Part shown: piece by piece, positions 1,247 through 13,578 of the stretch
How the letters are laid out: every line of letters begins with the position of its first letter
Numbering within the stretch: the stretch's first letter is position 1
Notes under the pieces: generated by a model
The model's database searches: none
Told to the model about the DNA's origin: nothing
What the model saw: only the letters and a program-made list of their open reading frames with translations
Made by a program: the position numbers and the translations under genes
From: a methanotrophic endosymbiont of Bathymodiolus puteoserpentis (Logatchev)
Lineage (GTDB): Bacteria; Pseudomonadota; Gammaproteobacteria; Methylococcales; Methylomonadaceae
Length of the DNA stretch: 46,199 nt
Assembly: GCF_900128525.1 (NCBI RefSeq)
Contig: NZ_FQTQ01000021.1
Span: 1 to 46,199, forward strand
Direction of reading: 5' to 3'

Positions 1247-2401
1247 ATGCTTAATTCATTAGAAATAAAGAACTTTCGTTCTCTGGAAGATTTTCAGGTT
1301 AAAAAGTTAGGTCGTATTAATTTAATTGTCGGTAAGAACAATTCGGGTAAAAGCTCTGTGCTTGAGGCATTAAGGATTTATGCGGGTAATGCTAATAAAG
1401 GCTTATTAGAAAAAATTGCACAAGGACATGATGAGAAATGCTTTGTAGAGAGCAGTGATCAAGAGAGTTTTAATGGCGTATTACCTTTTGAGGATTTATT
1501 TACGGGAAGAAAGTTTCCTGTAGGCGAAGTGCCTATCGTTATTGGCGAGCTTGGCAATGAGGAGGAGGCGTTAAAAATTTATCATGTTTATCGTGTTGAA
1601 AGAGAGGTTTCAGTTAATGATGAAGATGGCAAGTTTATTGAAAAATCGGTTCGACAAGTTTCTGTAACAGAGTTAGCTAAGGTTAATAAGAGTCAGATCG
1701 TAGGAGAAGGACTGCTGATATTAAAAAAAGGTAATACAGTATTGATTGATTTTAAACATAGTCATCCTTCTTTTACACGATTTGTATTAGATGGCATTAC
1801 AGTGCCTAGCAGTTTTATTCCTACCCAGTTAATTGCTATGAATGATTTGGCAAAAGATTGGGATGCTATTGCGCTTACTGAGGCAGAAGAGATGGTTAAG
1901 GCGGCGATGCAAATTATTCTGCCTGAGTTTGAGAGTTTAATCTTTGTTAATGATTCTGTTTATGCTGATACAACAGGTAAAGAAACGCGGCGTGTTGCTA
2001 AAGTGAAAATTAAAGGTTTGTCGCGTCCCGTACCTTTGAATAGCTTAGGTGACGGCATGTTGCGCATATTGCAGATGGTGTTAAAGGTTTTTCCCGCGAA
2101 AGGCGAATTTTTGCTGATTGATGAGTTTGAAAATGGCTTACATTACAGTGTGCAGGAAAAAGTATGGACATTGTTATTTGAGTTGGCTGAAAAATTAGAT
2201 ATTCAGGTTTTTGCCACCACGCATAGCTGGGATTGTATCGAAAGTTTTTCTAAAGTGGCAATGGATAAAAAATCCATTGAGGGCGTTTTGTTTAGAGTTG
2301 GGCAAAGTGTGCGTAACAGTGATAAAGGTCGTGTTATTGCTACCGTATTTGATGAACAGCAGCTTTATAATATTACCCAAGCTGATGTTGAGGTGCGTTG
2401 A
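1247..2401 (+). CDS. OLD/PARIS-type ABC ATPase (AAA_15/AAA_21)
   Basis: This 384-aa SMC/ABC-like ATPase opens with the LEIKNFRSL strand typical of OLD and RecF-type proteins. It has Walker A GKNNSGKSS at about residues 29-37, a signature-like SLGDGMLRI, Walker B LLIDEFENG at about 289-297, and an H-loop-like FATTHSWD. I chose ATG 1247 over the in-frame ATG 1226 because GGGAAG lies just upstream and the conserved N-terminus begins there. Its stop overlaps the next start by one base (TGATG). The partner is a TOPRIM-like protein, as in OLD, Gabija and PARIS, where the ATPase senses infection or damage and the TOPRIM subunit is the effector. I infer an anti-phage role; the substrate is unknown. 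Confidence 0.8.
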   Translation: MLNSLEIKNFRSLEDFQVKKLGRINLIVGKNNSGKSSVLEALRIYAGNANKGLLEKIAQGHDEKCFVESSDQESFNGVLPFEDLFTGRKFPVGEVPIVIGELGNEEEALKIYHVYRVEREVSVNDEDGKFIEKSVRQVSVTELAKVNKSQIVGEGLLILKKGNTVLIDFKHSHPSFTRFVLDGITVPSSFIPTQLIAMNDLAKDWDAIALTEAEEMVKAAMQIILPEFESLIFVNDSVYADTTGKETRRVAKVKIKGLSRPVPLNSLGDGMLRILQMVLKVFPAKGEFLLIDEFENGLHYSVQEKVWTLLFELAEKLDIQVFATTHSWDCIESFSKVAMDKKSIEGVLFRVGQSVRNSDKGRVIATVFDEQQLYNITQADVEVR

Positions 2402-3060
2402 TGGAAGCGACTAAGCAGATATTACTGGTTGAAGGGGGGGCTGATAAGTCTTTTTTTGAGAAAATTTGTAACAGGTTATCACTTGATACCGTTGTTCAAG
2501 TCGCATCGCCAAAGGATTTAGGTGGCAGGCGAAACTCGAAAGAAGGCGTATTTCAACGCTTACAGGTGCTATTGCCGCAATTGAATGATGGTCAAATCAC
2601 TCATCTTGCACTGGTGGTTGATGCTGATTATCTTGAACGGCATGGCTTAGGATGCCAAAAAACAATAGCTCGTGTTTCTGAGATTGTCGAGCCGTTTGGG
2701 TTTGAGTTAAATCAAGATTCAGAAAATGGCTTATGTTTTAGGCATAATGATGGATTAGCTGATTTGGGGCTGTGGGTGATGCCTGATAACCAACAGGAAG
2801 GAATGTTGGAAGACTGGATTAAAGCTTGTGTTAAAGATGATGAACAAGCTCTGTTTAATCAGGCGATAGTTGCGGTGCAAGCAGTTGAAGGTCAAAAATT
2901 TAGTTCTCACTTAAAGTCTAAAGCGGATGTAGCCACTTGGTTGGCATGGCAAAAACAGCCTGGACATGGTTTATATGTGGCGATTAATGATGACCTTTTG
3001 GATGGCGATAGCCTGTTATTTAAAGCAATTGAACAGTGGTTGCTTGGGATATTTAAATAA
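2401..3060 (+). CDS. TOPRIM-like DUF3226-type protein, partner of the upstream ATPase
   Basis: The 219-aa protein begins with a TOPRIM-like strand ending in acidic E11 (ILLVEGGADK) and carries a DxD pair at D74 and D76 (LVVDADY). It then has the GLWVMPDN block at 123-130 with a nearby acidic cluster, as I recall for DUF3226. E plus DxD is the metal-binding signature of TOPRIM nucleases and primases, so a nuclease activity is plausible but inferred. Translational coupling to the ATPase (1-nt overlap) implies the two act as a complex. It resembles the ATPase plus TOPRIM pairing of PARIS (AriA/AriB), but it is shorter than AriB and lacks obvious DUF4435 sequence, so I would not call it PARIS. 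Confidence 0.7.
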   Translation: MEATKQILLVEGGADKSFFEKICNRLSLDTVVQVASPKDLGGRRNSKEGVFQRLQVLLPQLNDGQITHLALVVDADYLERHGLGCQKTIARVSEIVEPFGFELNQDSENGLCFRHNDGLADLGLWVMPDNQQEGMLEDWIKACVKDDEQALFNQAIVAVQAVEGQKFSSHLKSKADVATWLAWQKQPGHGLYVAINDDLLDGDSLLFKAIEQWLLGIFK

Positions 3061-3062
3061 CA

Positions 3063-4592
3063 ATGTCTTTACCAATCAACATTGAAGCTTTAATCACGCA
3101 AAATATCATCGAAAGCGAGCGTATCGAATTTAAGCAAGGCTGGAATCCGCAAGTGATTTTACATTCGGTCTGTGCTTTTGCGAATGACTTTAATAATTTG
3201 GGTGGTGGTTATTTGGTGGTCGGTATTGCTGAACAGGATGGGCAGGCGATCATACCGCCTATCGGGCTGGAAGTCAGCAAATTGGACGCGATACAAAAAG
3301 AGCTACTGCAAATCTGCCATTTTATTTCGCCGCATTATTTCCCTGTGGTTGAGGTGGCTGTTATACAGGGGCGGCATGTTTTGGTGATCTGGTGTCCACC
3401 TGGTGATACGCGACCGTATAAGTCGGCTAAAAGCATCAGCGGCAAAGAGGCGCAAACAAAGCTTTATTATATTCGCCGCTTGTCTTCGACCGTGATAGCG
3501 AGTGATGCTGACTTGCAGCGTTTGCTGGAATTAACCGCGAAAGTGCCATTTGATAACCGTATCAACCATCATGCAAGTATTGATGATTTTAATCTAACGC
3601 ATATTGCCAGTTTTTTACAGCAGGTTAAAAGTGCTTTGTATGAGGAATTGCCAAAATTAAGTTTAGCGGAATTAACTCGCAATATGGGCGTTGCCAGAGG
3701 TGCAGACGAGGATATTAAGCCGCTGAATGTTGGCTTATTGATGTTTAGTGATGAGCCTTATCAGCATTTTCGCGGCGCACGCATTGAGCTAATTGAGTAT
3801 CAGGATGAGATTGGCGATCAATTCAGGGAGACGTACTTTACTGGCCCGATTTGGAAGCAATTGATTGACGTTATGCAGTATATTAAGCATCAGGTCATCA
3901 AAGAGCAGGTTATCAAGGTACAAGGGCAGGCGGAAGCCTTACGTTTCTATAATTTCCCCTTTGAAGCCGTTGAAGAAGCGGTGGCGAATGCGGTGTTTCA
4001 TAAAGGCTACGACAAACAAAACCCGGTTGAGATTAATGTGCGCCATGATTGTATCGAGGTGCTGTCATTTCCTGGCCCTTTGCCGCCCGTTGATCAGCAG
4101 ATGTTACAACGAGAAAAGGTAATCGCGAGAGATTGCCGTAACAGTCGTTTAGGTGATTTCTTGAAAGAGTTACGCCTAACGGAAGGGCGAGGCACAGGTT
4201 TACCTAAGATTCGTCGCTTTATGGCAAGAAATGGTTCGCCAGCGCCTATTTTTGAAACCAATCCAGATAATGTGTATTTCCTGACGATATTGCCGATTCA
4301 TGGGCGTTTTACGCGGGAAGATAATAAATTACAGCTAGAGTCACGGCCAGAGTCACGGCCAGAGTCAGAGCTAGCAAGAAAAGTACTTTCCTTCTTAGTG
4401 GATGCTGAATTGAGTAAATCAGAGTTATCAGAAAAGTTAGGGCATAAAGCCATTTCAGGTGAGCTTAATAAGCAAATTAAACGCTTACTGAAGCAGGGAT
4501 TCATTGAAAGAACCATTCCAGATAAGCCGAGTAGTCGATTGCAGAAGTATCGATTGACAGCTTTAGCGACTGAATTAAACAAGACTATTTAA
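3063..4592 (+). CDS. AlbA_2 (Schlafen-like) / GHKL ATPase / winged-helix protein
   Basis: The 509-aa protein has three parts. An N-terminal AlbA_2/Schlafen-type domain carries E-RIEFKQGW (18-27) and NNLGGGYLVVGI (44-55). A C-terminal RecG-like HATPase_c_4 domain contains EEAVANAVFHKGY (about 303-315) and the LTEGRGTGLPKIRR glycine-rich lid. A final winged helix lies at about 435-505. Relatives are annotated as putative transcriptional regulators or RNA-binding proteins, and many occur in defence islands. ESRP tetrapeptide repeats link the last two parts. It starts 2 nt after the TOPRIM-like gene and ends 9 nt before pglZ, so it is in the BREX operon. AlbA_2 can bind or cut nucleic acid; which applies here is unknown. 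Confidence 0.75.
   Translation: MSLPINIEALITQNIIESERIEFKQGWNPQVILHSVCAFANDFNNLGGGYLVVGIAEQDGQAIIPPIGLEVSKLDAIQKELLQICHFISPHYFPVVEVAVIQGRHVLVIWCPPGDTRPYKSAKSISGKEAQTKLYYIRRLSSTVIASDADLQRLLELTAKVPFDNRINHHASIDDFNLTHIASFLQQVKSALYEELPKLSLAELTRNMGVARGADEDIKPLNVGLLMFSDEPYQHFRGARIELIEYQDEIGDQFRETYFTGPIWKQLIDVMQYIKHQVIKEQVIKVQGQAEALRFYNFPFEAVEEAVANAVFHKGYDKQNPVEINVRHDCIEVLSFPGPLPPVDQQMLQREKVIARDCRNSRLGDFLKELRLTEGRGTGLPKIRRFMARNGSPAPIFETNPDNVYFLTILPIHGRFTREDNKLQLESRPESRPESELARKVLSFLVDAELSKSELSEKLGHKAISGELNKQIKRLLKQGFIERTIPDKPSSRLQKYRLTALATELNKTI
4338..4367 (+). repeat. In-frame 12-bp tandem repeat
   Basis: GAGTCACGGCCA occurs twice in perfect tandem (4338-4349, 4350-4361), followed by a partial third copy GAGTCA. 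It encodes ESRP-ESRP-ES in the linker before the winged helix. The 12-nt unit preserves the frame, so slippage would change linker length without breaking the gene. Confidence 0.9.
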
Positions 4593-4601
4593 AAAACAGT
4601 T

Positions 4602-7196
4602 ATGCAAATAGAGCAATTACAGCAAGGCATTAGCGCTAAATTTGAACAAAGCCGCTTGGTGTTTTGGTATGACCCTGAGCAGAGCTTTAAAGAAGCGATT
4701 GAGACCTTAACTATTGATGGCGTTACTGTGTTGGATATGTCGGAGCAATCTTTATTTGCAACCAAAAAACGCTTGGAATTAGATGAACCTGAGCAGCTGT
4801 TTTTATTGTATTTTCCTTATGCAGAGCCTGAAGCTGATCTGGATTGGCTGTTAGATATTCGCTTATACAGTGAGCAGTTCTTTGCTGATGTGAGTTCGAT
4901 ATTATTAAATGAACTGGGTATTCCTAAAATGGCGTTGCGCGGCCATATACGTCAACGGCAGGCATTTTTTACGAACAAGCAGCGAATGACAGGTCTAAAA
5001 CGCTTTGTTACTGAGAATGAAGATGAGGCCTCTTTAGACCGTAAGATGATTGCGGTATTAACTAAAGCGGAATCAGCGTCGTTAACGGATATTTTATTCC
5101 AACTGGTCAAAGCTTATGCAGAGGGTTTAGCACCAGAGAATGATGCTATCAGCTTAATCGACCAGCTAGATAAATTTGAGCTAACAGGTTCATTATGGGC
5201 TGAGTTAGCCGCACACTTTAGTTATGCGAGTCGTCAGCCTTCTCTGGCGGATTTTATCTTAAAATTATTTTGTACGGAATTATGGAGCCAAATCGAAGCA
5301 ACAGATCGGGATTGGTTGTTGAATAATGTGCTAAAAACAGGAGCAGGAAAGGCGACTGCATTAGCTTTTATGACCGGCTGGCGTGATAGCCGCAGTTTTG
5401 CAAAGGCACATGATATGATTGCCAAGCAAATCAGTGGTCAATTAGAGGTGGAATCACGCTGTCGGGATTACCACCCATTTCAATTAATGGAATGTGAAAC
5501 TTTTGAAGTGATTGAACAAGCGATTATTCGCGGCCTGGTAAATAATTTATTAGATGTGAGTACGCGCTTAGATCGCGTGCAATTTGACCGTATCTTATCG
5601 CGGCGACTCGTGAGTCATTGGTGTGTGTCGCGCCAAGAATACGCGGCGATTTATGAGGCCTTACGCCAAGCTGAGCGCTTATTATATTTGCGTCAGCAAT
5701 ATGTGGATGGTTTTCATTATGATTCCGCTAAAGCGATGTATAGCGCTTATGTGAGTGAGCTTTATCTATTTGATCAAGCTTATCGTTTGTTTAATGAAAA
5801 TGTGGCTACGGTTTTAAGCAAAGGTTCCGATGTATTACGTCAGCTGGATGAGGCAATAGAGAATCTTTATACCCATTGGTATTTATATGAAATAGGCTTG
5901 GCCTGGGATAGGCAACTGGAGAGTGAAAATTGTTTAGCACAGTGGAAAATAGCGGGGATTCCACAGCAACATCAGTTTTATAAGCATCAAGTGGCGATGC
6001 ATCTTAAAGGTAAGCAGTTCAAGCGTGTATTCGTCATTATTTCTGATGCGTTACGCTATGAAGTCGCGCATGAATTAGTCTTTAGTATTAACCGTGAGAA
6101 GCGTTTCAAAGCCGAATTAAACACGCAGTTAGGTGTATTACCTAGTTATACGCAATTAGGCATGGCGGCATTATTACCCCATAAAACCTTGTCTTATGGT
6201 GAAGATCAAAGCGCCATCGTCTTTGCTGATGGCATGTCCACACAAGGCTTGGATAATCGAAACACGATTTTAGCCAAAGCTAAAGGGATGGCGGTGAGTG
6301 CAAAGGTCTTGACTGCTTGGAGTAATGAGGAAGGACGCGAGAAGATTCGTGATGCCGAAGTGGTGTATATCTATCACGATACCATTGATGCTATCGGTGA
6401 TAAGCTGCCTACGGAAGAGAAAACCTTTGCGGCTTGCCGTGATGCCATTAATGAATTAAAAGACTTAGTGGGTCGAGTGATTAATCGTTTGAATGGTAAT
6501 CGCGTCTTAGTAACAGCGGATCATGGTTTTCTATTTCAACAAAAAGCCTTGTCTGAAGCGGATAAAACAGTTTTAGACATCAAGCCTAGCGGTACCATTG
6601 AAGCTAAAAAACGTTATATTATTGGCGGTCATTTGAATGCTGACCCCGCTTGTTGGAAAGGGAGGATTGCTGATACCGCTAATGGGAGTGGTGACACAGA
6701 ATTTTTAATTCCTAAAGGCGTACAACGCTTTCATTTTGTCGGTGGCTCGCGTTTTGTGCATGGCGGGGCTATGTTGCAAGAGATTTGTGTGCCGGTGATT
6801 TCGATTGTCGCTTTACGCGGTGAGAAAATGGTGCAGAATGAGAAACAGCCTGTGGGTATTGTGGTAAAAAACCAGCCGATTAAGATGGCCAATCATATTG
6901 ATAAAATCAGTTTTATTCAGACTGATGCCGTTGACGAGTTGCATATTGCGCGGCAAGTGGAGGTTTTTATTGTTGATAGCGAAGGTAAAGAAGTTTCCAG
7001 CCGTGAAACCTTAAATTTCGACAGTCAAAGCGCGTCTATGAATGAGCGTACCCGAGATGCACGTTTAAAGCTGATCGGAGCGCAATTTGATCGTCATGCG
7101 GCGTATACATTGGTATTAGAAAATACCGCTACCCAAACTCGCTATAATCAGTATGCCGTCACCATTGATTTAGCCTTTCAGGATGATTTTTTCTAA
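4602..7196 (+). CDS. pglZ: BREX-1 system phosphatase-like protein PglZ
   Basis: The 864-aa length fits BREX type 1 PglZ. The alkaline-phosphatase-superfamily PglZ core is visible as VFVIISDALRYEVAHEL at about 476-492, whose first metal-binding Asp lies in SDALR, and VLVTADHGFLFQ at about 635-646 with the second D-H pair. N-terminal residues near 15-25 (RLVFWYDPEQSF) match the family opening. PglZ is essential in BREX, which blocks phage DNA replication while methylating host DNA; its biochemical target is not settled. The stop shares one base with the brxL start. No frameshift or missing core residue is seen, so PglZ looks functional although its PglX partner is broken. Confidence 0.95.
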   Translation: MQIEQLQQGISAKFEQSRLVFWYDPEQSFKEAIETLTIDGVTVLDMSEQSLFATKKRLELDEPEQLFLLYFPYAEPEADLDWLLDIRLYSEQFFADVSSILLNELGIPKMALRGHIRQRQAFFTNKQRMTGLKRFVTENEDEASLDRKMIAVLTKAESASLTDILFQLVKAYAEGLAPENDAISLIDQLDKFELTGSLWAELAAHFSYASRQPSLADFILKLFCTELWSQIEATDRDWLLNNVLKTGAGKATALAFMTGWRDSRSFAKAHDMIAKQISGQLEVESRCRDYHPFQLMECETFEVIEQAIIRGLVNNLLDVSTRLDRVQFDRILSRRLVSHWCVSRQEYAAIYEALRQAERLLYLRQQYVDGFHYDSAKAMYSAYVSELYLFDQAYRLFNENVATVLSKGSDVLRQLDEAIENLYTHWYLYEIGLAWDRQLESENCLAQWKIAGIPQQHQFYKHQVAMHLKGKQFKRVFVIISDALRYEVAHELVFSINREKRFKAELNTQLGVLPSYTQLGMAALLPHKTLSYGEDQSAIVFADGMSTQGLDNRNTILAKAKGMAVSAKVLTAWSNEEGREKIRDAEVVYIYHDTIDAIGDKLPTEEKTFAACRDAINELKDLVGRVINRLNGNRVLVTADHGFLFQQKALSEADKTVLDIKPSGTIEAKKRYIIGGHLNADPACWKGRIADTANGSGDTEFLIPKGVQRFHFVGGSRFVHGGAMLQEICVPVISIVALRGEKMVQNEKQPVGIVVKNQPIKMANHIDKISFIQTDAVDELHIARQVEVFIVDSEGKEVSSRETLNFDSQSASMNERTRDARLKLIGAQFDRHAAYTLVLENTATQTRYNQYAVTIDLAFQDDFF

Positions 7197-9256
7197 TGAG
7201 TGAATTAACAGTAAGTAAAAAAGCAGTGCAAGAAGATTTAGATACTTTATTAAATCGTCACTTTAAAGGGCGTGTGGTGAGAAAGGATCTGACCAAGCAG
7301 CTTAAAGAAGGGGTGAATGTTCCTGTTTATGTGCTGGAATATTTATTGGGGATGTACTGCGCTTCTGATGATGCTGAAGTGGTGGCTGAAGGCTTAGAGA
7401 ATGTTAAAAAAATATTGGCCGAAAACTATGTGCGCCCTGATGAGGCGGAAAAAGTAAAATCACTGATCCGTGAGCATGGCAGCTATAAAGTGATAGATAA
7501 AGTCAGTGTGAAGCTCAACCAAAATAAAGATATTTATGAGGCGAGTCTTTCTAATTTAGGTCTTAAAGATGCTTTTGTACCAGTGGGAATCGTTAAGGAA
7601 AATGAAAAGCTATTTATGGGTGGCATTTGGTGCATTATCACCGTGCAGTATTTTTTTGAAGAAGGACAGAAAGCCTCGCCCTTTTCTATTGTGACGCTAA
7701 AGCCGATCCAGATGCCCAATATGGATATGGAGGAGCTATTTACTGCAAGAGCACAATTTACTAGCACTGAATGGGGCGATGTGTTGTTACGCTCAATTGG
7801 TATGGAGCCTGTTAATTTAGAGGAGCGCGCTAAATTACATTTACTTGCCCGTATGATCCCCTTTGTAGAAAATAATTATAATGTTTGTGAATTAGGGCCG
7901 CGAGGGACGGGGAAGAGTCATGTCTATAAAGAATGTTCACCCAATAGCTTATTAGTCTCTGGCGGGCAAACGACGGTGGCGAACCTGTTTTATAACATGG
8001 CGAGTCGCAGAGTGGGTTTAGTCGGACTATGGGATGTCGTTGCGTTTGATGAAGTGGCGGGGATTAACTTTCATGATAACGATGGCATTCAAATCATGAA
8101 AGATTATATGGCATCGGGTTCCTTTTCCAGAGGACGTGATTCCATTGAAGCCAGTGCTTCGATGGTCTTTATCGGTAATATCAATCAAAGCGTGGAAACT
8201 TTAGTGAAAACCAGCCATCTATTAGCGCCGTTTCCACAACAGATGATTGATACCGCTTTCTTTGATCGTTTTCATGCGTATATTCCAGGATGGGAAATCC
8301 CTAAAATGCGTCCTGAATTTTTCACTAATAATTTTGGTCTTATTACCGATTACATGGCCGAATATATGCGTGAAATGCGTAAGCGTAATTTTGCCAATGC
8401 GATTGATCAGTATTTTAAATTAGGCAATAACCTAAATCAGCGTGATGTGATTGCTGTTCGGCGTACCGTATCGGGATTACTTAAGCTCTTACACCCAAAT
8501 AATCAATTTGATAAAGAGGATGTGCGTTATTGTTTGGTGTACGCTTTAGAAGTTCGTCGGCGCATTAAAGAACAACTCAAAAAGCTCGGAGGGATGGAAT
8601 TCTTTGATGTCCATTTCAGCTATCTTGATAATGAATCCTTAGAAGAATTTTTCGTTAATGTACCGGAGCAGGGCGGTAGTAAGCTAATTCCAGAAGGCAT
8701 GTCACATCCGGGGGTCGTGCATTTGGTTACTAAGGGGGATTCGACAGGCCAATTAGGGCTGTATCGCTTTGAAACGCAAATGATGGCAGGGCATGGAAAA
8801 CATACGGTTTCAGGTTTCGGTTCTCATGTCGCGGCTAAAGAAGCGATACGGGTCGGTTTTGATTATTTTAAAGGTAATCTGAGTCGTATCAGCCAGATCG
8901 CTAAATTTTCTGAATACGAGTTCCATTTACATATCGTCGAACTTTATAACTCCGGTGCCAGTACGCAAACCAGCCTTGCTGCCTTTATTGCTTTCTGTTC
9001 CATATTAATGAAAAAGCCGGTACAAGAGCAGATGGTGGTATTAGGCAATATGACGCTAGGTGGGGTAGTGAACCCAGTAGAAGATCTTGCCGATACTCTG
9101 CAAATGGCCATGGATAGTGGCGGCACTAAAGTTTTACTACCGATGGCTTCCGCTTCCGATATACCGACTGTTCCAGCGGAGCTGTTCTCCAAATTCCAGA
9201 TAAGCTTTTACTCCGATCCTGTGGATGCGGTATATAAAGCATTAGGGGTTCAGTAG
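7196..9256 (+). CDS. brxL: BREX system Lon-like AAA+ protein BrxL
   Basis: The 686-aa product has an N-terminal DNA-binding-like region, an AAA+ core with Walker A GPRGTGKSH (about 235-243) and Walker B-like VVAFDEVAG (about 280-288), and a C-terminal Lon-protease-like domain from about residue 510. The segments GASTQTSLAAFIAF and VVLGNMTLGGVVNPVEDL correspond to the Lon serine region and the GEV-PIGG-like strand. BrxL is the terminal gene of type 1 BREX; known homologues form ring assemblies that bind DNA. It overlaps pglZ by one base and closes the operon. Length and motifs look intact. Confidence 0.95.
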   Translation: MSELTVSKKAVQEDLDTLLNRHFKGRVVRKDLTKQLKEGVNVPVYVLEYLLGMYCASDDAEVVAEGLENVKKILAENYVRPDEAEKVKSLIREHGSYKVIDKVSVKLNQNKDIYEASLSNLGLKDAFVPVGIVKENEKLFMGGIWCIITVQYFFEEGQKASPFSIVTLKPIQMPNMDMEELFTARAQFTSTEWGDVLLRSIGMEPVNLEERAKLHLLARMIPFVENNYNVCELGPRGTGKSHVYKECSPNSLLVSGGQTTVANLFYNMASRRVGLVGLWDVVAFDEVAGINFHDNDGIQIMKDYMASGSFSRGRDSIEASASMVFIGNINQSVETLVKTSHLLAPFPQQMIDTAFFDRFHAYIPGWEIPKMRPEFFTNNFGLITDYMAEYMREMRKRNFANAIDQYFKLGNNLNQRDVIAVRRTVSGLLKLLHPNNQFDKEDVRYCLVYALEVRRRIKEQLKKLGGMEFFDVHFSYLDNESLEEFFVNVPEQGGSKLIPEGMSHPGVVHLVTKGDSTGQLGLYRFETQMMAGHGKHTVSGFGSHVAAKEAIRVGFDYFKGNLSRISQIAKFSEYEFHLHIVELYNSGASTQTSLAAFIAFCSILMKKPVQEQMVVLGNMTLGGVVNPVEDLADTLQMAMDSGGTKVLLPMASASDIPTVPAELFSKFQISFYSDPVDAVYKALGVQ

Positions 9257-9370: not shown

Positions 9371-10519
9371 ATGAAATTTATCCATACTTCAGATTGGCAT
9401 ATAGGCCGTTTATTCCAAAACATATCGTTACTGGAAGACCAGTTACATGTGCTACAGCAATTAAAAGCTTATGCTAGTGAATATAATGTTGATGCATTAA
9501 TTATTTCAGGTGACGTATTTGATCGTTCTGTACCACCTGCTGAAGCAGTCGATGCATTAGATCAGTTTTTAGATGAAATTATTGGTGAACTTGAAATTCC
9601 TGTGATTATGATTTCTGGGAATCATGATTCAGCCAAGCGCTTACGCTTTGGTGCAAAGCATATGCAGCAATCGGGTCTGCATATTTTAAGCCAGCTTTCT
9701 GATGTAACTGTCCCCGTTATTATTGAAACTGCAACAGGCCCTGTGCATTTTTATGGACTTCCTTATCATGACCCGGTTGAAGTACGGGAAGCTTTTGCTT
9801 GTGAAGTAAAAACCTATGATGAGGCGCATACTTATTTAGTTGATTTGGTTAAAGACGCACGTATTGCAAATACTCCAGCCGTGTTATTAAGTCATTGCTT
9901 TATTGATGGTGCTGAGGAATCAGATTCTGAACGACCTTTATCGATTGGTGGTGCTGATCGAGTGTCTTATCAAGCTTTAGAAGATTTTGATTATGTGGCT
10001 TTAGGGCATTTGCATGGCCCACAATACAAAGGTAAAGAGCATATCCGTTATTCTGGTTCTTTATTAAAATATTCTTTTTCTGAGTATAAACAAAACAAAG
10101 GCATTACTTTAGTTGAATTGAATGAGCAAGGTTTGGTATCAACAGAACATCTCCAATTAACACCAGAAAAGGATTTAAGGGTGATTGAAGGCTTATTAGA
10201 CGAGTTAATCGAACAGGGTAAAAAAGATCCACGTAACTATGATTATATATTGGCTAAATTAACGGATAAACAAGATATTCTTGATCCGATGGGGCAGTTA
10301 AGAAAGGTGTATCCAAATGTATTGCAATTAGAACGTACACAATTTTCTTTATCTAAAGGCAGCCGGTTGGTTGCAGATGTAAGCCTAAAAAGGACTGAAC
10401 AACAGGTGTTTAAAGATTTTTTCGAGCAAGTTATTGGCAATGCTTTAACTGAAGAGCAAAATACTTTATTACGGGACATTATTGCTGAAGCGAAAGATGT
10501 TATCGAGGCAGCGGAATGA
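9371..10519 (+). CDS. sbcD: Exonuclease SbcD, Mre11-like subunit of SbcCD
   Basis: The 382-aa calcineurin-like phosphoesterase has the metal-binding motifs in order: DWHIGR (8-13), ISGDVFDR (about 45-52), SGNHDSAKR (about 77-85), LSHCF, and ALGHLHGPQ. SbcD supplies the nuclease of the SbcCD complex, which cuts hairpins, cruciforms and protein-blocked DNA ends. An AAGGGA stretch lies about 10 nt before the ATG. The gene begins 114 nt after brxL on the same strand and overlaps sbcC by ATGA. Whether it is transcribed with BREX or from its own promoter in the gap is not clear. Confidence 0.95.
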   Translation: MKFIHTSDWHIGRLFQNISLLEDQLHVLQQLKAYASEYNVDALIISGDVFDRSVPPAEAVDALDQFLDEIIGELEIPVIMISGNHDSAKRLRFGAKHMQQSGLHILSQLSDVTVPVIIETATGPVHFYGLPYHDPVEVREAFACEVKTYDEAHTYLVDLVKDARIANTPAVLLSHCFIDGAEESDSERPLSIGGADRVSYQALEDFDYVALGHLHGPQYKGKEHIRYSGSLLKYSFSEYKQNKGITLVELNEQGLVSTEHLQLTPEKDLRVIEGLLDELIEQGKKDPRNYDYILAKLTDKQDILDPMGQLRKVYPNVLQLERTQFSLSKGSRLVADVSLKRTEQQVFKDFFEQVIGNALTEEQNTLLRDIIAEAKDVIEAAE

Positions 10520-13500
10520 AATTACAGTCTTTAGAAATTCAAGCTTTTGGTCCCTTTGCTAAAAAAGAAGTGATTAACTTTTCAGCCTTAGGTGAAAACC
10601 CTTTGTTTTTAATTGATGGGCCTACGGGAGCAGGGAAGTCATCAATTCTTCATGCCATTTGTTATGCGCTTTATGGTGAAACCACTGATTCAGACCGCAA
10701 AGAGCTGGGTCTCAGGTGTGATCATGCCGAAGCGGATTTACTGACTGAATTATCCTTAGCGTTTAGTATTAGAGGCGATCATTATCGTATTACACGTGTG
10801 CCAACACAAATGCGACCCTCTAAACGAGGTGGGGGAGAAACTGAACAAAAATCTACAGCACATTTAAGACGTATGCTTGAAAGTGGCAAAGAAGAAACCT
10901 TAGTAGCCAAAAAAACCACAGAAGCAAAAGCTAAGATTGAAGAAATTATTGGCTTAAGCTCAGAGCAGTTTTTGCAAGTGATGGTATTGCCACAGGGTAA
11001 ATTTCGCGCATTATTGCTGGCCAAATCAGATGACCGACAGGCTATCTTATCGACCTTATTTCAAACTGAAATATATAAGCGAATTGAGCAACTGCTTAAA
11101 GATAAAGCAGGGGCGATAGAAAAACAAAATCAGGCATTTGAAGATAGAAAGGCTGAGGCGCTTTCTGATGTGCATGTTGTGGATAGTGAAGCATTAGAAA
11201 TGGCTATTGGAGAAGTCGTTGGATTGCTAGAGGCTAAGCAAAAAGAAAAAGACTTGGCTGCTGAAAAAAAACAACAAGCCGCAACAGCAATTGAAACCGC
11301 TGTTGCTTTAGGTAAAACGTTTGATAGCCGAGATACTAAACAAAAGGAACTGCAAAGCTTTAAATTAAAGGAGGATGAAATAAGCGCTGACAAAAGCCGT
11401 ATTACACGGGCAGCAAAAGCAGCGTCTATAGCGCCGAAATGGTTGGCTTTGCAAGGTCTTCTACAGGACATTAAGGCAAAGAAAGCCGAGATTGTGACTG
11501 CAAACCAAGCTAAAGAAAAGGCTGATTTACGTGTAAAGACTGCCAAGGAGGGTGTGAATCAAGCAACCGAGAATTACCAGCAGCGAGACTCTCTTAAAGC
11601 AAAAGAGGGGATATTTAAAGGGTACCAGGAACAACTGACGAGTTATAAAGAATTAAACAATGCTTTATTAGCTGCTATTGCAAATCATAAATCTGCATTA
11701 GATCAAAAGTCTGAATTAGAAGAACAAGACAAAACGATTGGACAAGCCTTAATAACATTAGTTGCTGAGATTGAATCTTTAGAACAGGCGAGCGCTAATA
11801 AATCCGTTATTGTTGAGCAAAAGCTGTGGGCAAAAGGGGTTTTTGATAAACGTAAAGAGCTAGATGTTGCGCGTGTTGATTTACTTTCACTTAATCAAGT
11901 TTATCAAAAACAAAAAGATAAATTTGAGGCAGCTGAAAAAGTGTATAAAAAAATTGCAGAGGACGCTAATCGAACTGAAATGCGCTGGTTTTCTAATCAA
12001 GCCGCTGTGTTAGCTGAAAAGTTAGAACAAGATATGCCCTGTGCTGTGTGTGGCAGTCTTAAACACCCTAATCCCGCGGTATTCTCAGAGAATGAATTAG
12101 TCATTAATCAAGCTGTGGTTGATCAAGCGAGAGCATCGCAAGCAAAACAATTTAAGGTAATGAATGCTATTAAAGAAGCGATGCAAGCTTGTTTGCATTC
12201 GGTGACAGGTAAAGAACAGGATGTTAAGCAATTAGAATTAGAGTTAGCCGATCATGCGACTAAGTCTTTGTTAGAAGTAGAGCAGGTTTATAGAAGTTTG
12301 GAATCGGATTTAAAGCTAATAGAAAGCAACGAAAAGAAATTACTTAGAGCTAAGAAACAAAAATCTGATAAAGAACAAGAACGGGAACCTATTGCGAGTG
12401 ATATTAAAGCCATTGACGATAATATCCCCGAATTAACGGCGCTTAAAGCAACGGCTAAAAGTGAGCTGGACGCTGCAAATAAATCACTGCCCGAAGCCTA
12501 TAGGAACACTGTGGCAATTGAATCGGTATTGACCCAGGTACGTCAGGAAATTAAAAGCTTAGAAACTAGGTATGAAGTCGCCAATCAAGAACTGACTGAT
12601 TCCTCAAACAATCAATCTTCACTCGTATCTACCTTGATAGCACTTAATAAAAGTCTGGATGATTTACAAGTCCGTAATAAAGAGCAATCTCACCTATGGC
12701 AACAAGCCTTGGCAGACAGTGAATTTGCCACTCAAGAGGCGTTTGCTAGTGCGCAAATGAAAAAAGGGGCGCTTAATGTTCTGGTTGAGCATGTAAGAGC
12801 GCATGATGACGCAGTCAAAACATTGCAGGCAGAATTAGGGTTACTAGAACGGCAGTTAAAAGACAAGCAACCGCCAGATTTAGAAAAACTACAACAGAAC
12901 AGTAATAAATTAAATGATGAGTTTACCTTAGCAGAAAGTATATGGGCAACAGCCAACCAGAAACATAAAGAGTTGATTAATACACGAGGCAAAATCCAAA
13001 AAATTGAAAAGCAACAAGTGGATATTAAAAAACAGTATGAGGTGGTTGGTACTTTATCAAAAGCAGCATCAGGTCGAGGTAATGTGAGAGTTACTTTGGA
13101 ACGTTTTGTTTTAGGCAATATATTAGATTCTGTTTTGAGTATTGCTAGCCAGCGGTTACATTTGATGAGTAAAGGCCAGTATCGATTAATCCGTCAAAAT
13201 GAAGAAGAGCAGCTGAAAAATACGACCGCTGGATTAGATTTAGCTATTGATGATGCCTATACGGGAAAAACTAGACCTGTAGCGACTTTATCGGGTGGCG
13301 AATCCTTTATGGCATCACTTGCATTAGCGTTGGGGCTATCAGATGTAGTACAAGAACGTTCAGGTGGAATACAGCTTGATACTTTATTTATTGATGAGGG
13401 ATTTGGAAGTTTAGATCAAGATTCATTGCAACTGGCGATTAATACTTTAATTGATCTGCAATCGGCAGGCCGTGCTATAGGGATTATTTCTCATGTTTCA

Positions 13501-13578
13501 GAGCTAAAAGAACAAATGGCCCAACGGATTGAAGTGACAGGATCGAGAAGTGGTAGCACAATTAAAATGCTTGCTTAG
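10516..13578 (+). CDS. sbcC: Exonuclease SbcC, Rad50-like ATPase of SbcCD
   Basis: The 1,020-aa SMC-family protein has Walker A GPTGAGKSS at 35-43, two long charged coiled-coil arms, a zinc hook CAVCGS (C509 and C512) between them, the ABC signature LSGGESF at about 925, and Walker B TLFIDEGFGSLD at about 955-966. The final IEVTGSRSGSTIKML is a normal SbcC ending, so the gene is complete. It forms the ATP-driven clamp that presents DNA to SbcD. The 4-nt overlap with sbcD shows translational coupling. Its stop lies 4 nt before a motif that recurs beside the broken fliJ. Confidence 0.95.
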   Translation: MKLQSLEIQAFGPFAKKEVINFSALGENPLFLIDGPTGAGKSSILHAICYALYGETTDSDRKELGLRCDHAEADLLTELSLAFSIRGDHYRITRVPTQMRPSKRGGGETEQKSTAHLRRMLESGKEETLVAKKTTEAKAKIEEIIGLSSEQFLQVMVLPQGKFRALLLAKSDDRQAILSTLFQTEIYKRIEQLLKDKAGAIEKQNQAFEDRKAEALSDVHVVDSEALEMAIGEVVGLLEAKQKEKDLAAEKKQQAATAIETAVALGKTFDSRDTKQKELQSFKLKEDEISADKSRITRAAKAASIAPKWLALQGLLQDIKAKKAEIVTANQAKEKADLRVKTAKEGVNQATENYQQRDSLKAKEGIFKGYQEQLTSYKELNNALLAAIANHKSALDQKSELEEQDKTIGQALITLVAEIESLEQASANKSVIVEQKLWAKGVFDKRKELDVARVDLLSLNQVYQKQKDKFEAAEKVYKKIAEDANRTEMRWFSNQAAVLAEKLEQDMPCAVCGSLKHPNPAVFSENELVINQAVVDQARASQAKQFKVMNAIKEAMQACLHSVTGKEQDVKQLELELADHATKSLLEVEQVYRSLESDLKLIESNEKKLLRAKKQKSDKEQEREPIASDIKAIDDNIPELTALKATAKSELDAANKSLPEAYRNTVAIESVLTQVRQEIKSLETRYEVANQELTDSSNNQSSLVSTLIALNKSLDDLQVRNKEQSHLWQQALADSEFATQEAFASAQMKKGALNVLVEHVRAHDDAVKTLQAELGLLERQLKDKQPPDLEKLQQNSNKLNDEFTLAESIWATANQKHKELINTRGKIQKIEKQQVDIKKQYEVVGTLSKAASGRGNVRVTLERFVLGNILDSVLSIASQRLHLMSKGQYRLIRQNEEEQLKNTTAGLDLAIDDAYTGKTRPVATLSGGESFMASLALALGLSDVVQERSGGIQLDTLFIDEGFGSLDQDSLQLAINTLIDLQSAGRAIGIISHVSELKEQMAQRIEVTGSRSGSTIKMLA

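Follow-up and report, generated by a model that had tools for sequence, protein, structure and literature searches.

An obligate ATPase–DUF3226 gene pair, probably PARIS-like, in BREX and in housekeeping operons

Results and Discussion

Between a piece of pglX and the pglZ gene of a BREX locus, a methanotrophic endosymbiont of Bathymodiolus puteoserpentis carries two adjacent genes that belong together as a single element. The window analysed here is the whole of a 46,199-nucleotide stretch (contig NZ_FQTQ01000021.1 of assembly GCF_900128525.1), and the element comprises a gene for an OLD/ABC-type ATPase of 384 amino acids (positions 1247 to 2401, + strand, with a possible alternative start at an upstream ATG, position 1226) and one for a DUF3226 protein of 219 amino acids with a TOPRIM-like fold (2401 to 3060, + strand). 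The two genes form one obligate unit, BREX is only one home of this unit, and, which is what is new here, operons can carry the pair as a passenger. As to its nature, we put at roughly two in three the probability that it is a PARIS-like, two-component and portable passenger made of a sensor ATPase and a TOPRIM nuclease, a figure that refers to the functional class.

Identity of the pair

Both proteins were identified by Pfam and PADLOC matches and by structural models, together with sequence motifs for the ATPase and conserved residues for the DUF3226 protein. In particular, the models of the PADLOC candidate system PDC-M38 cover the two adjacent proteins over their full length (PDC-M38A, 2.2e-149; PDC-M38B, 1.9e-80). 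We take PDC to stand for phage defence candidate, and we know of no tested function for PDC-M38; a literature search returned no paper naming either DUF3226 or PDC-M38. The sequence-only reading of this DNA had put the pair forward as an undescribed system and had named a match to a named system as evidence to the contrary. Such a match exists, but only to this unvalidated candidate, and the general class has already been catalogued in BREX (PMC12839542, PMC11341690). Namely, Rakesh and Krishnan (2026) report OLD-ABC ATPases with nucleases, chiefly TOPRIM, in at least 1,242 taxa, and Schlafen–kinase–winged helix-turn-helix (wHTH) proteins in at least 1,017 taxa, both in BREX and BREX-related systems and both described as backup effectors (PMC12839542), while Went et al. 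(2024) describe PARIS embedded in a Salmonella BREX island and report that, among approximately 9,000 genomes in which pglZ and pglX are co-localised, approximately 7,000 carry intervening genes, approximately 5,000 of these lacking a known system (PMC11341690). The pair is not a new kind of system, and what merits further attention is its passenger habit; a candidate family and a likely chemistry can now be named, which largely answers the question of an undescribed system in BREX for this window.

An obligate two-gene unit

The evidence for a unit comes from a scan of named genomes, in which we analysed the best 80 of 520 confirmed loci, a sample biased to relatives of the window and with rough gene calls where loci are rich in G+C. 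The ATPase gene lies directly upstream of the DUF3226 gene, on the same strand and in the same order, in all 76 testable loci: an intact, adjacent ATPase reading frame is found in 75, in one (L021) the DUF3226 gene next to the ATPase gene is broken, and the contigs of the remaining four (L022, L041, L053 and L084) end first. This is the opposite of the rare co-occurrence that the sequence-only reading had offered as grounds for doubting its own proposal, and obligate pairing can be taken as observed. What is more, the distances between ATPases and those between DUF3226 proteins are correlated in a mirror-tree analysis (r = 0.82 for 70 pairs; r = 0.78 for the 39 pairs of the close clade, where the maximum of 1000 permutations was 0.38), although the permutations leave shared descent in, which alone could yield part of r. 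The dN/dS ratio was 0.06 to 0.39 in the five pairs of relatives for which it was computed. In the window itself the two reading frames overlap by one base (TGATG), and the third gene follows after 2 nucleotides; reading frames and Pfam matches (AAA_15, 1.1e-29, for the ATPase; DUF3226, 8.3e-44, for its partner) uphold the arrangement of three genes that had been read from the sequence.

A predicted TOPRIM nuclease and its ATPase

The AlphaFold2 model of the DUF3226 protein (predicted local distance difference test score, pLDDT, of 95) has only weak top matches in the PDB (E 0.018), to the TOPRIM regions at the C-terminus of OLD proteins, with AriB of PARIS at rank 20 (E 0.29). In a sequence search of the PDB, the protein alone gave chance-like matches only, and a profile was required: one built from 61 DUF3226 proteins reaches AriB (E 0.001), aligning E11 with E26 of AriB, and E26A is an inactive AriB mutant (PMC12409363). 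Among these 61 sequences (that of the window and 60 of 73 usable ones), E11, D15, D74, E137 and K174 are invariant and D76 is conserved in at least 90%, while the position of D76 is not invariant when nine remoter proteins are aligned. E11, D15, D74, D76, E137 and K174 fit the active-site residues E400, E404, D455, D457, E508 and K562 of the Bp OLD nuclease (PMC6755086) in their order and, as regards the first four, also in spacing or motif, though not by superposition. The residue set of an OLD-type two-metal TOPRIM (E, E/D, DxD, E, K) is thus present in a protein whose fold match is weak. E11, D74 and D76 had been singled out beforehand as likely catalytic, and they are found and conserved in the alignment; the division of labour between a separate ATPase and a TOPRIM protein, also proposed from the sequence, is borne out by the TOPRIM-like model, with its weak structural match, and by the conserved OLD residues.

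The model of the ATPase (pLDDT 92) resembles SMC/Rad50, PtuA, GajA and retron ATPases. Judging by position, we take G29, N31, G34 and K35 to be the Walker A motif, G268 and G270 the signature, and D292 and E293 Walker B, and these residues are invariant in 53 sequences (the window and 52 of 66 usable ones). The protein ends in an EVR tail: the C-terminal residue is arginine in 73 of 76 sequences and the ending is E[VI]R in 68 of 76. Since arginine also ends the ATPase in all 17 loci in which the two frames do not overlap, the conserved tail is no by-product of frame overlap. The tail would probably serve to dock the nuclease.

Relation to PARIS and other known systems

With PARIS the pair shares separate genes for an ABC ATPase and a TOPRIM protein in one operon, the profile relationship of AriB to DUF3226, and the choice of sites, as PARIS also occupies the interval between pglX and pglZ, and PARIS-type pairs are also seen in housekeeping operons of the window's family. 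The TOPRIM families differ, however, the pair having DUF3226 where AriB has DUF4435, and so do the sizes (384 and 219 amino acids against 464 and 308-316 for the solved AriA and AriB). The DUF3226 protein has no Pfam DUF4435 match at E <= 1 and matches the PADLOC PARIS models only partially (AriB, 0.0066; AriAB, 0.0003), and the ATPase matches AriA in two pieces (1.7e-29), far below its match to PDC-M38A. Moreover, the pglX-pglZ interval of one relative (L016) holds a PARIS-type pair (AriAB, 4e-23; AriB, 2.5e-16) and then an M38 pair, side by side, for which reason, together with the absent DUF4435 match, we reject membership in PARIS. Stacking recurs elsewhere: in L024 (5799-12718) a PDC-S02 (YhcG-type) nuclease, HEC-01AB, PDC-M38AB and PDC-M25AB all lie between pglX and pglZ, i.e. 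three pairs of an ATPase and a small partner (HEC-01, M38 and PDC-M25), and L056 has PDC-M25 and M38. Because M38 stands beside other pairs in these three loci, we regard it as PARIS-like in outline yet a family of its own; it is related to PARIS but separate.

The next best model for the ATPase after PDC-M38A is AbiLi, matched over the full length at 2.5e-55, whereas the DUF3226 protein has no AbiLii match at E <= 1; with that partner absent, membership in AbiL was rejected as well. OLD class 1 proteins, GajA of Gabija and the OLD protein of Retron-Eco8 have in common with the pair the combination of an ABC ATPase with TOPRIM chemistry and its active-site residues. Unlike OLD class 1 and GajA, in which the two parts are fused, the pair consists of two genes, and this excludes OLD class 1; neither the helicase gene of Gabija nor the reverse transcriptase gene of Retron-Eco8 lies beside it in the window. 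Gabija was rejected on the split genes and on the scanned neighbours, which are pglX, the Schlafen gene, pglZ and brxL, with no UvrD-like GajB among them. The earlier view that the pair is distinct from Gabija, OLD and PARIS therefore holds at the level of families, as judged by Pfam and PADLOC matches.

BREX as one home among several

At 9 of the 80 named loci, blastp (1e-4) gave a match to the PglX piece, PglZ or BrxL of the window; some of the contigs of the other 71 are short, other BREX types could escape such a search, and contig breaks affect the counts. In a sample of 151 genomes of the window's family, its own included (counts made by eye, from a sample that overlaps the named loci), 17 have a strong M38-type DUF3226 match (E < 1e-25), and in four of these, again including the window's genome, it lies beside PglZ on the same contig; 31 of the 151 have a strong PglZ match (E < 1e-20). 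By contrast, PDC-M25B has PglZ beside it in five of nine matches. Loci at which no BREX gene was detected are in the majority (71 of the 80 named ones), as are family genomes whose copy does not lie beside PglZ (13 of 17), and a function confined to BREX was therefore rejected.

In a tree built from 47 pairs, the label BREX must change 3 times, and the starred branches force 3 changes, so that at least three moves into or out of BREX are implied. This tree was made quickly, contains several long branches and gives no direction of these changes. Both labels are clustered, that for BREX with 3 changes against a mean of 10.1 in shuffles (0 of 500 as low) and that for his operons with 3 against 4.8 (7 of 500 as low).

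The presence of the family is patchy: of 369 genomes sampled from the class, 9 have PF11536, as do 36 of the 151 of the family, the window's own included. A megablast search of E. coli genomes gave no match. Ten plasmid records carry a match, and the three opened proved to be two mobilizable plasmids with toxin-antitoxin pairs and one phage-tail region. On a Plesiomonas plasmid (L152, 1-8609) a related pair lies a few genes past phage tail genes, as in prophage cargo. Archaeal relatives are found in ANME-2/Methanosarcinales (L018, L021, L022 and L028, at 50-57% identity), and two of these (L018 and L028) fall among proteobacterial copies on the tree.

Copies inside housekeeping operons

At least one core-gene neighbour on the same strand, in a few cases 100-215 nucleotides away, was found at 22 of the 80 named loci. 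As the flanks chosen for naming were recognised or close ones, this is a count from a chosen subset and not a rate; two loci (L054 and L080) were assigned by similarity to others (L039 and L064), and at 42 of the 80 no flank was identified by profile or search. Copies lie between hisG and hisD in six distinct genomes (L019, L026, L027, L031, L038 and L124), with gaps of only 9 and 19 nucleotides in L027, one more gene in L026 and L031, and short open reading frames in L038. Similarly tight are trpG-[pair]-trpD (L017, 25 and 26 nucleotides), mnmA-[pair]-purB (L155, 9 and 31; L211, 9 and 42; also L156, with one extra 90-codon open reading frame) and fhcA-[pair]-fhcD (L209, 34 and 36), where the pair is PDC-M38 by model match. 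Less tight are hisZ-[pair]-purA (L025, 94 and 79) and pncC-[pair]-recA (L015, 146 and 169), and in L052 the pair lies between two carboxylase subunit genes. The other flanks that we looked at are not core genes: EPS genes (L044), a major facilitator superfamily exporter (L046), an AbiLi-like ATPase (L014), a VWA protein (L037), a helicase-nuclease 454 nucleotides away (L042) or none that could be named (L033).

In all 30 relatives fetched, of 40 with a hisD match and including the window's genome, the hisG-hisD junction is free of the pair, its width being 3-13 nucleotides in 21 of them and 55-153 in six, with an overlap in one and two not measured; the trpG-trpD junction of L160 is likewise free, at 35 nucleotides. 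In the tight cases the insertions are near-seamless. Neither transposase nor terminal repeat was seen at the few junctions read, a reading that was not a systematic search. Such clean empty sites in relatives open the insertion process to study.

The passenger habit is not specific to M38, because PARIS-type pairs also sit in housekeeping operons. For this comparison we opened 9 of the 22 matches to DUF4435, the family of AriB, that the genomes of the window's family contain. Two lie between hisC and tyrA (L203, 4072-6026, with a 1-nucleotide gap and a 1-nucleotide overlap; L207, 5192-7104); in two more, whose contig ends on the other side, tyrA follows (L202) or a hisC-like gene, recognised by a look at the sequence, precedes (L206); and a fifth follows ubiE (L201, 2907-5106), the next gene having no NCBIfam match. 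The remaining four are elsewhere, one of them (L200), by a similar look, among suf-like genes on the opposite strand.

We offer as a tentative idea, at somewhat less than even odds, that split OLD pairs, namely PDC-M38 and at least some PARIS-type ones, are operon stowaways: two-gene guard modules that would slip near-seamlessly, in some instances with overlapping start and stop codons, into BREX and into operons for biosynthesis, translation and recombination, lack their own promoter where the fit is tight, borrow the expression of the host operon and make their own loss costly, since a careless deletion would strike a core gene. A literature search for defence genes inside housekeeping operons found nothing on point, which is a weak test of the print record. 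The pattern of defence-type ATPase-nuclease pairs in housekeeping operons is testable, and searches guided by defence islands would miss it. Some copies lie near recombination genes, namely recA (L015, 4574-6465), a UvrD/PD-(D/E)XK gene that is maybe recB (L042, 8823-10669) and, by a look at the sequence only, recR-like genes (L084 and L085), all of which could be chance.

Proposed mechanism and its rivals

We propose that the ABC/OLD-type ATPase would act as sensor and keeper of a two-metal TOPRIM nuclease, held inactive in a complex and probably docked through the conserved C-terminal E-V/I-R tail. On detecting a phage product, the ATPase would release or activate the nuclease, whose target may be tRNA or DNA, and the outcome would be abortive or backup defence. 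In PARIS, the ATPase assembles as a hexamer and sequesters its nuclease partner, the trigger is of the Ocr type, and AriB cuts tRNA. The unit would need no BREX protein and, in tight operons, would probably have no promoter of its own; as a portable passenger of two genes it would lodge between neighbours that run in the same direction within an existing operon, the pglX-pglZ interval being only one such slot. Its company in that slot, in some relatives, includes a PARIS-type pair, HEC-01, PDC-M25 or Fic. Several points weigh against this mechanism. No PDB structure matches the DUF3226 model at E <= 0.001, the OLD TOPRIM match being weak; none of 50,697 phage records matched the pair (tblastn); our searches found no activity, complex or phage phenotype for any DUF3226 protein; and home changes appear rarer than descent in place, because the BREX and his labels are clustered on the tree. 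Many copies sit in housekeeping operons and not beside defence genes, which also fits a role outside defence, and OLD-family ATPases can be non-defensive, as is Cran1 (PMC12796447).

The latter consideration leads to the view of the pair as an ATPase and nickase of DNA repair or growth control, like archaeal Cran1. Copies beside recA, his, trp, pur, lepA and rpsA genes, along with the Cran1 precedent, speak in its favour, whereas the patchy presence of the family, the empty sites in relatives, the copies on plasmids and in a phage-tail region, and a BREX slot shared in some relatives with other defence candidates make it improbable in our estimation. Only marginally better are the chances that the pair is a fail-safe of BREX, triggered specifically when DNA mimics of phages, such as Ocr, disable BREX, as the sequence-only reading had also considered. 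The position between pglX and pglZ in the window, the BREX genes at nine named loci and the related PARIS, which responds to Ocr and has a place within the BREX island of Salmonella (PMC11341690, PMC12839542), are what one would expect under such a trigger. It is made doubtful by the 71 named loci without a BREX match, by the mere four of 17 family genomes with the pair beside pglZ, by a BREX that seems broken in the window's own assembly and by the Salmonella embedded PARIS itself, which gave no Ocr response in tests (PMC11341690).

A three-component system that includes the Schlafen/AlbA_2 protein, another suggestion of the sequence-only reading, strikes us as the least probable of all. While the 2-nucleotide spacing in the window and a different Schlafen-type protein after the pair in L030 would suit it, the window's Schlafen protein is matched in only one of the 80 named loci, L030 itself, at 23% identity (blastp, 1e-4), and the other 79 have no match, the slot of L011 being incomplete. 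In L030 this different Schlafen-type gene and a Fic gene come after the pair; in L011 a Fic gene does, on a contig that ends before pglZ, so that the slot is not seen whole. In addition, the G+C content at third codon positions is 0.44 for the Schlafen gene and 0.39-0.43 for pglZ, brxL and the pglX piece, compared with 0.31 and 0.35 for the pair. As the Schlafen gene fits the BREX genes in this respect and the pair does not, it appears to be a separate passenger, and the three-gene system was rejected on the partner count and the compositional mismatch. We return, then, to the PARIS-like two-component passenger as the reading we prefer.

The Schlafen gene and the BREX locus of the window

The third gene (3063 to 4592, + strand) encodes, by Pfam, a Schlafen/AlbA_2 – HATPase_c_4 – winged helix protein (SLFN_AlbA_2, 2.1e-15; HATPase_c_4, 2.9e-10; Fic-like_C, 1.7e-12) and is judged an independent passenger. 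Its domain order is that of the Schlafen-minimal kinase-wHTH proteins of BREX, with no distinctive difference seen (PMC12839542), and the best view of it is as a BREX accessory in its own right, of a kind described before, which sets it and the pair apart from each other. Its E17 and E22 are spaced like the catalytic E205 and E210 of Schlafen13, and D59 lies 37 residues on, compared with 38 for D248 of Schlafen13, a likeness in sequence spacing only (PMC5862951).

Profile matches place pglZ of BREX type 1 (PglZ type A) at 4602 to 7196, 9 nucleotides after the Schlafen gene, and brxL at 7196 to 9256, both on the + strand. Upstream of the pair lies a 3' remnant of pglX (120 to 1199, + strand), positions 120-1196 of which match residues 873-1247 of the Methylobacter psychrophilus PglX, our reference, at 76%. 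The claim that the three genes lie inside a BREX operon thus stands as to the pglX piece before them and pglZ and brxL after them, and falls short in that the operon is incomplete in the assembly. A search with the M. psychrophilus PglX found no further piece for residues 1-872 in the window's genome assembly, and a brxC query (named by NCBIfam BREX_BrxC) that matched all five other relatives, picked for having pglZ, had no match there. Bases 1 to 119, at the contig end, are a repeat (no strand assigned) with a second identical copy on another contig (G000:C206:27338-27456). Because pglX is only a remnant, brxC was not found and the contig begins with this repeat, the strain probably has a truncated BREX, or else the assembly lacks the upstream part. 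We discounted a promoter-like match at 1182-1209, as the region has 7 promoter-like sites against 8.6 expected in shuffles.

Finally, the genes immediately after brxL in the window are SbcD/SbcC-like (9371-13578), and in M. psychrophilus such genes (L159, 14355-15500; L158, 498-3560; 56% and 37.5% identity) lie between brxC and pglX, so that a pair of the SbcCD type may belong to the accessories of BREX and shift position.

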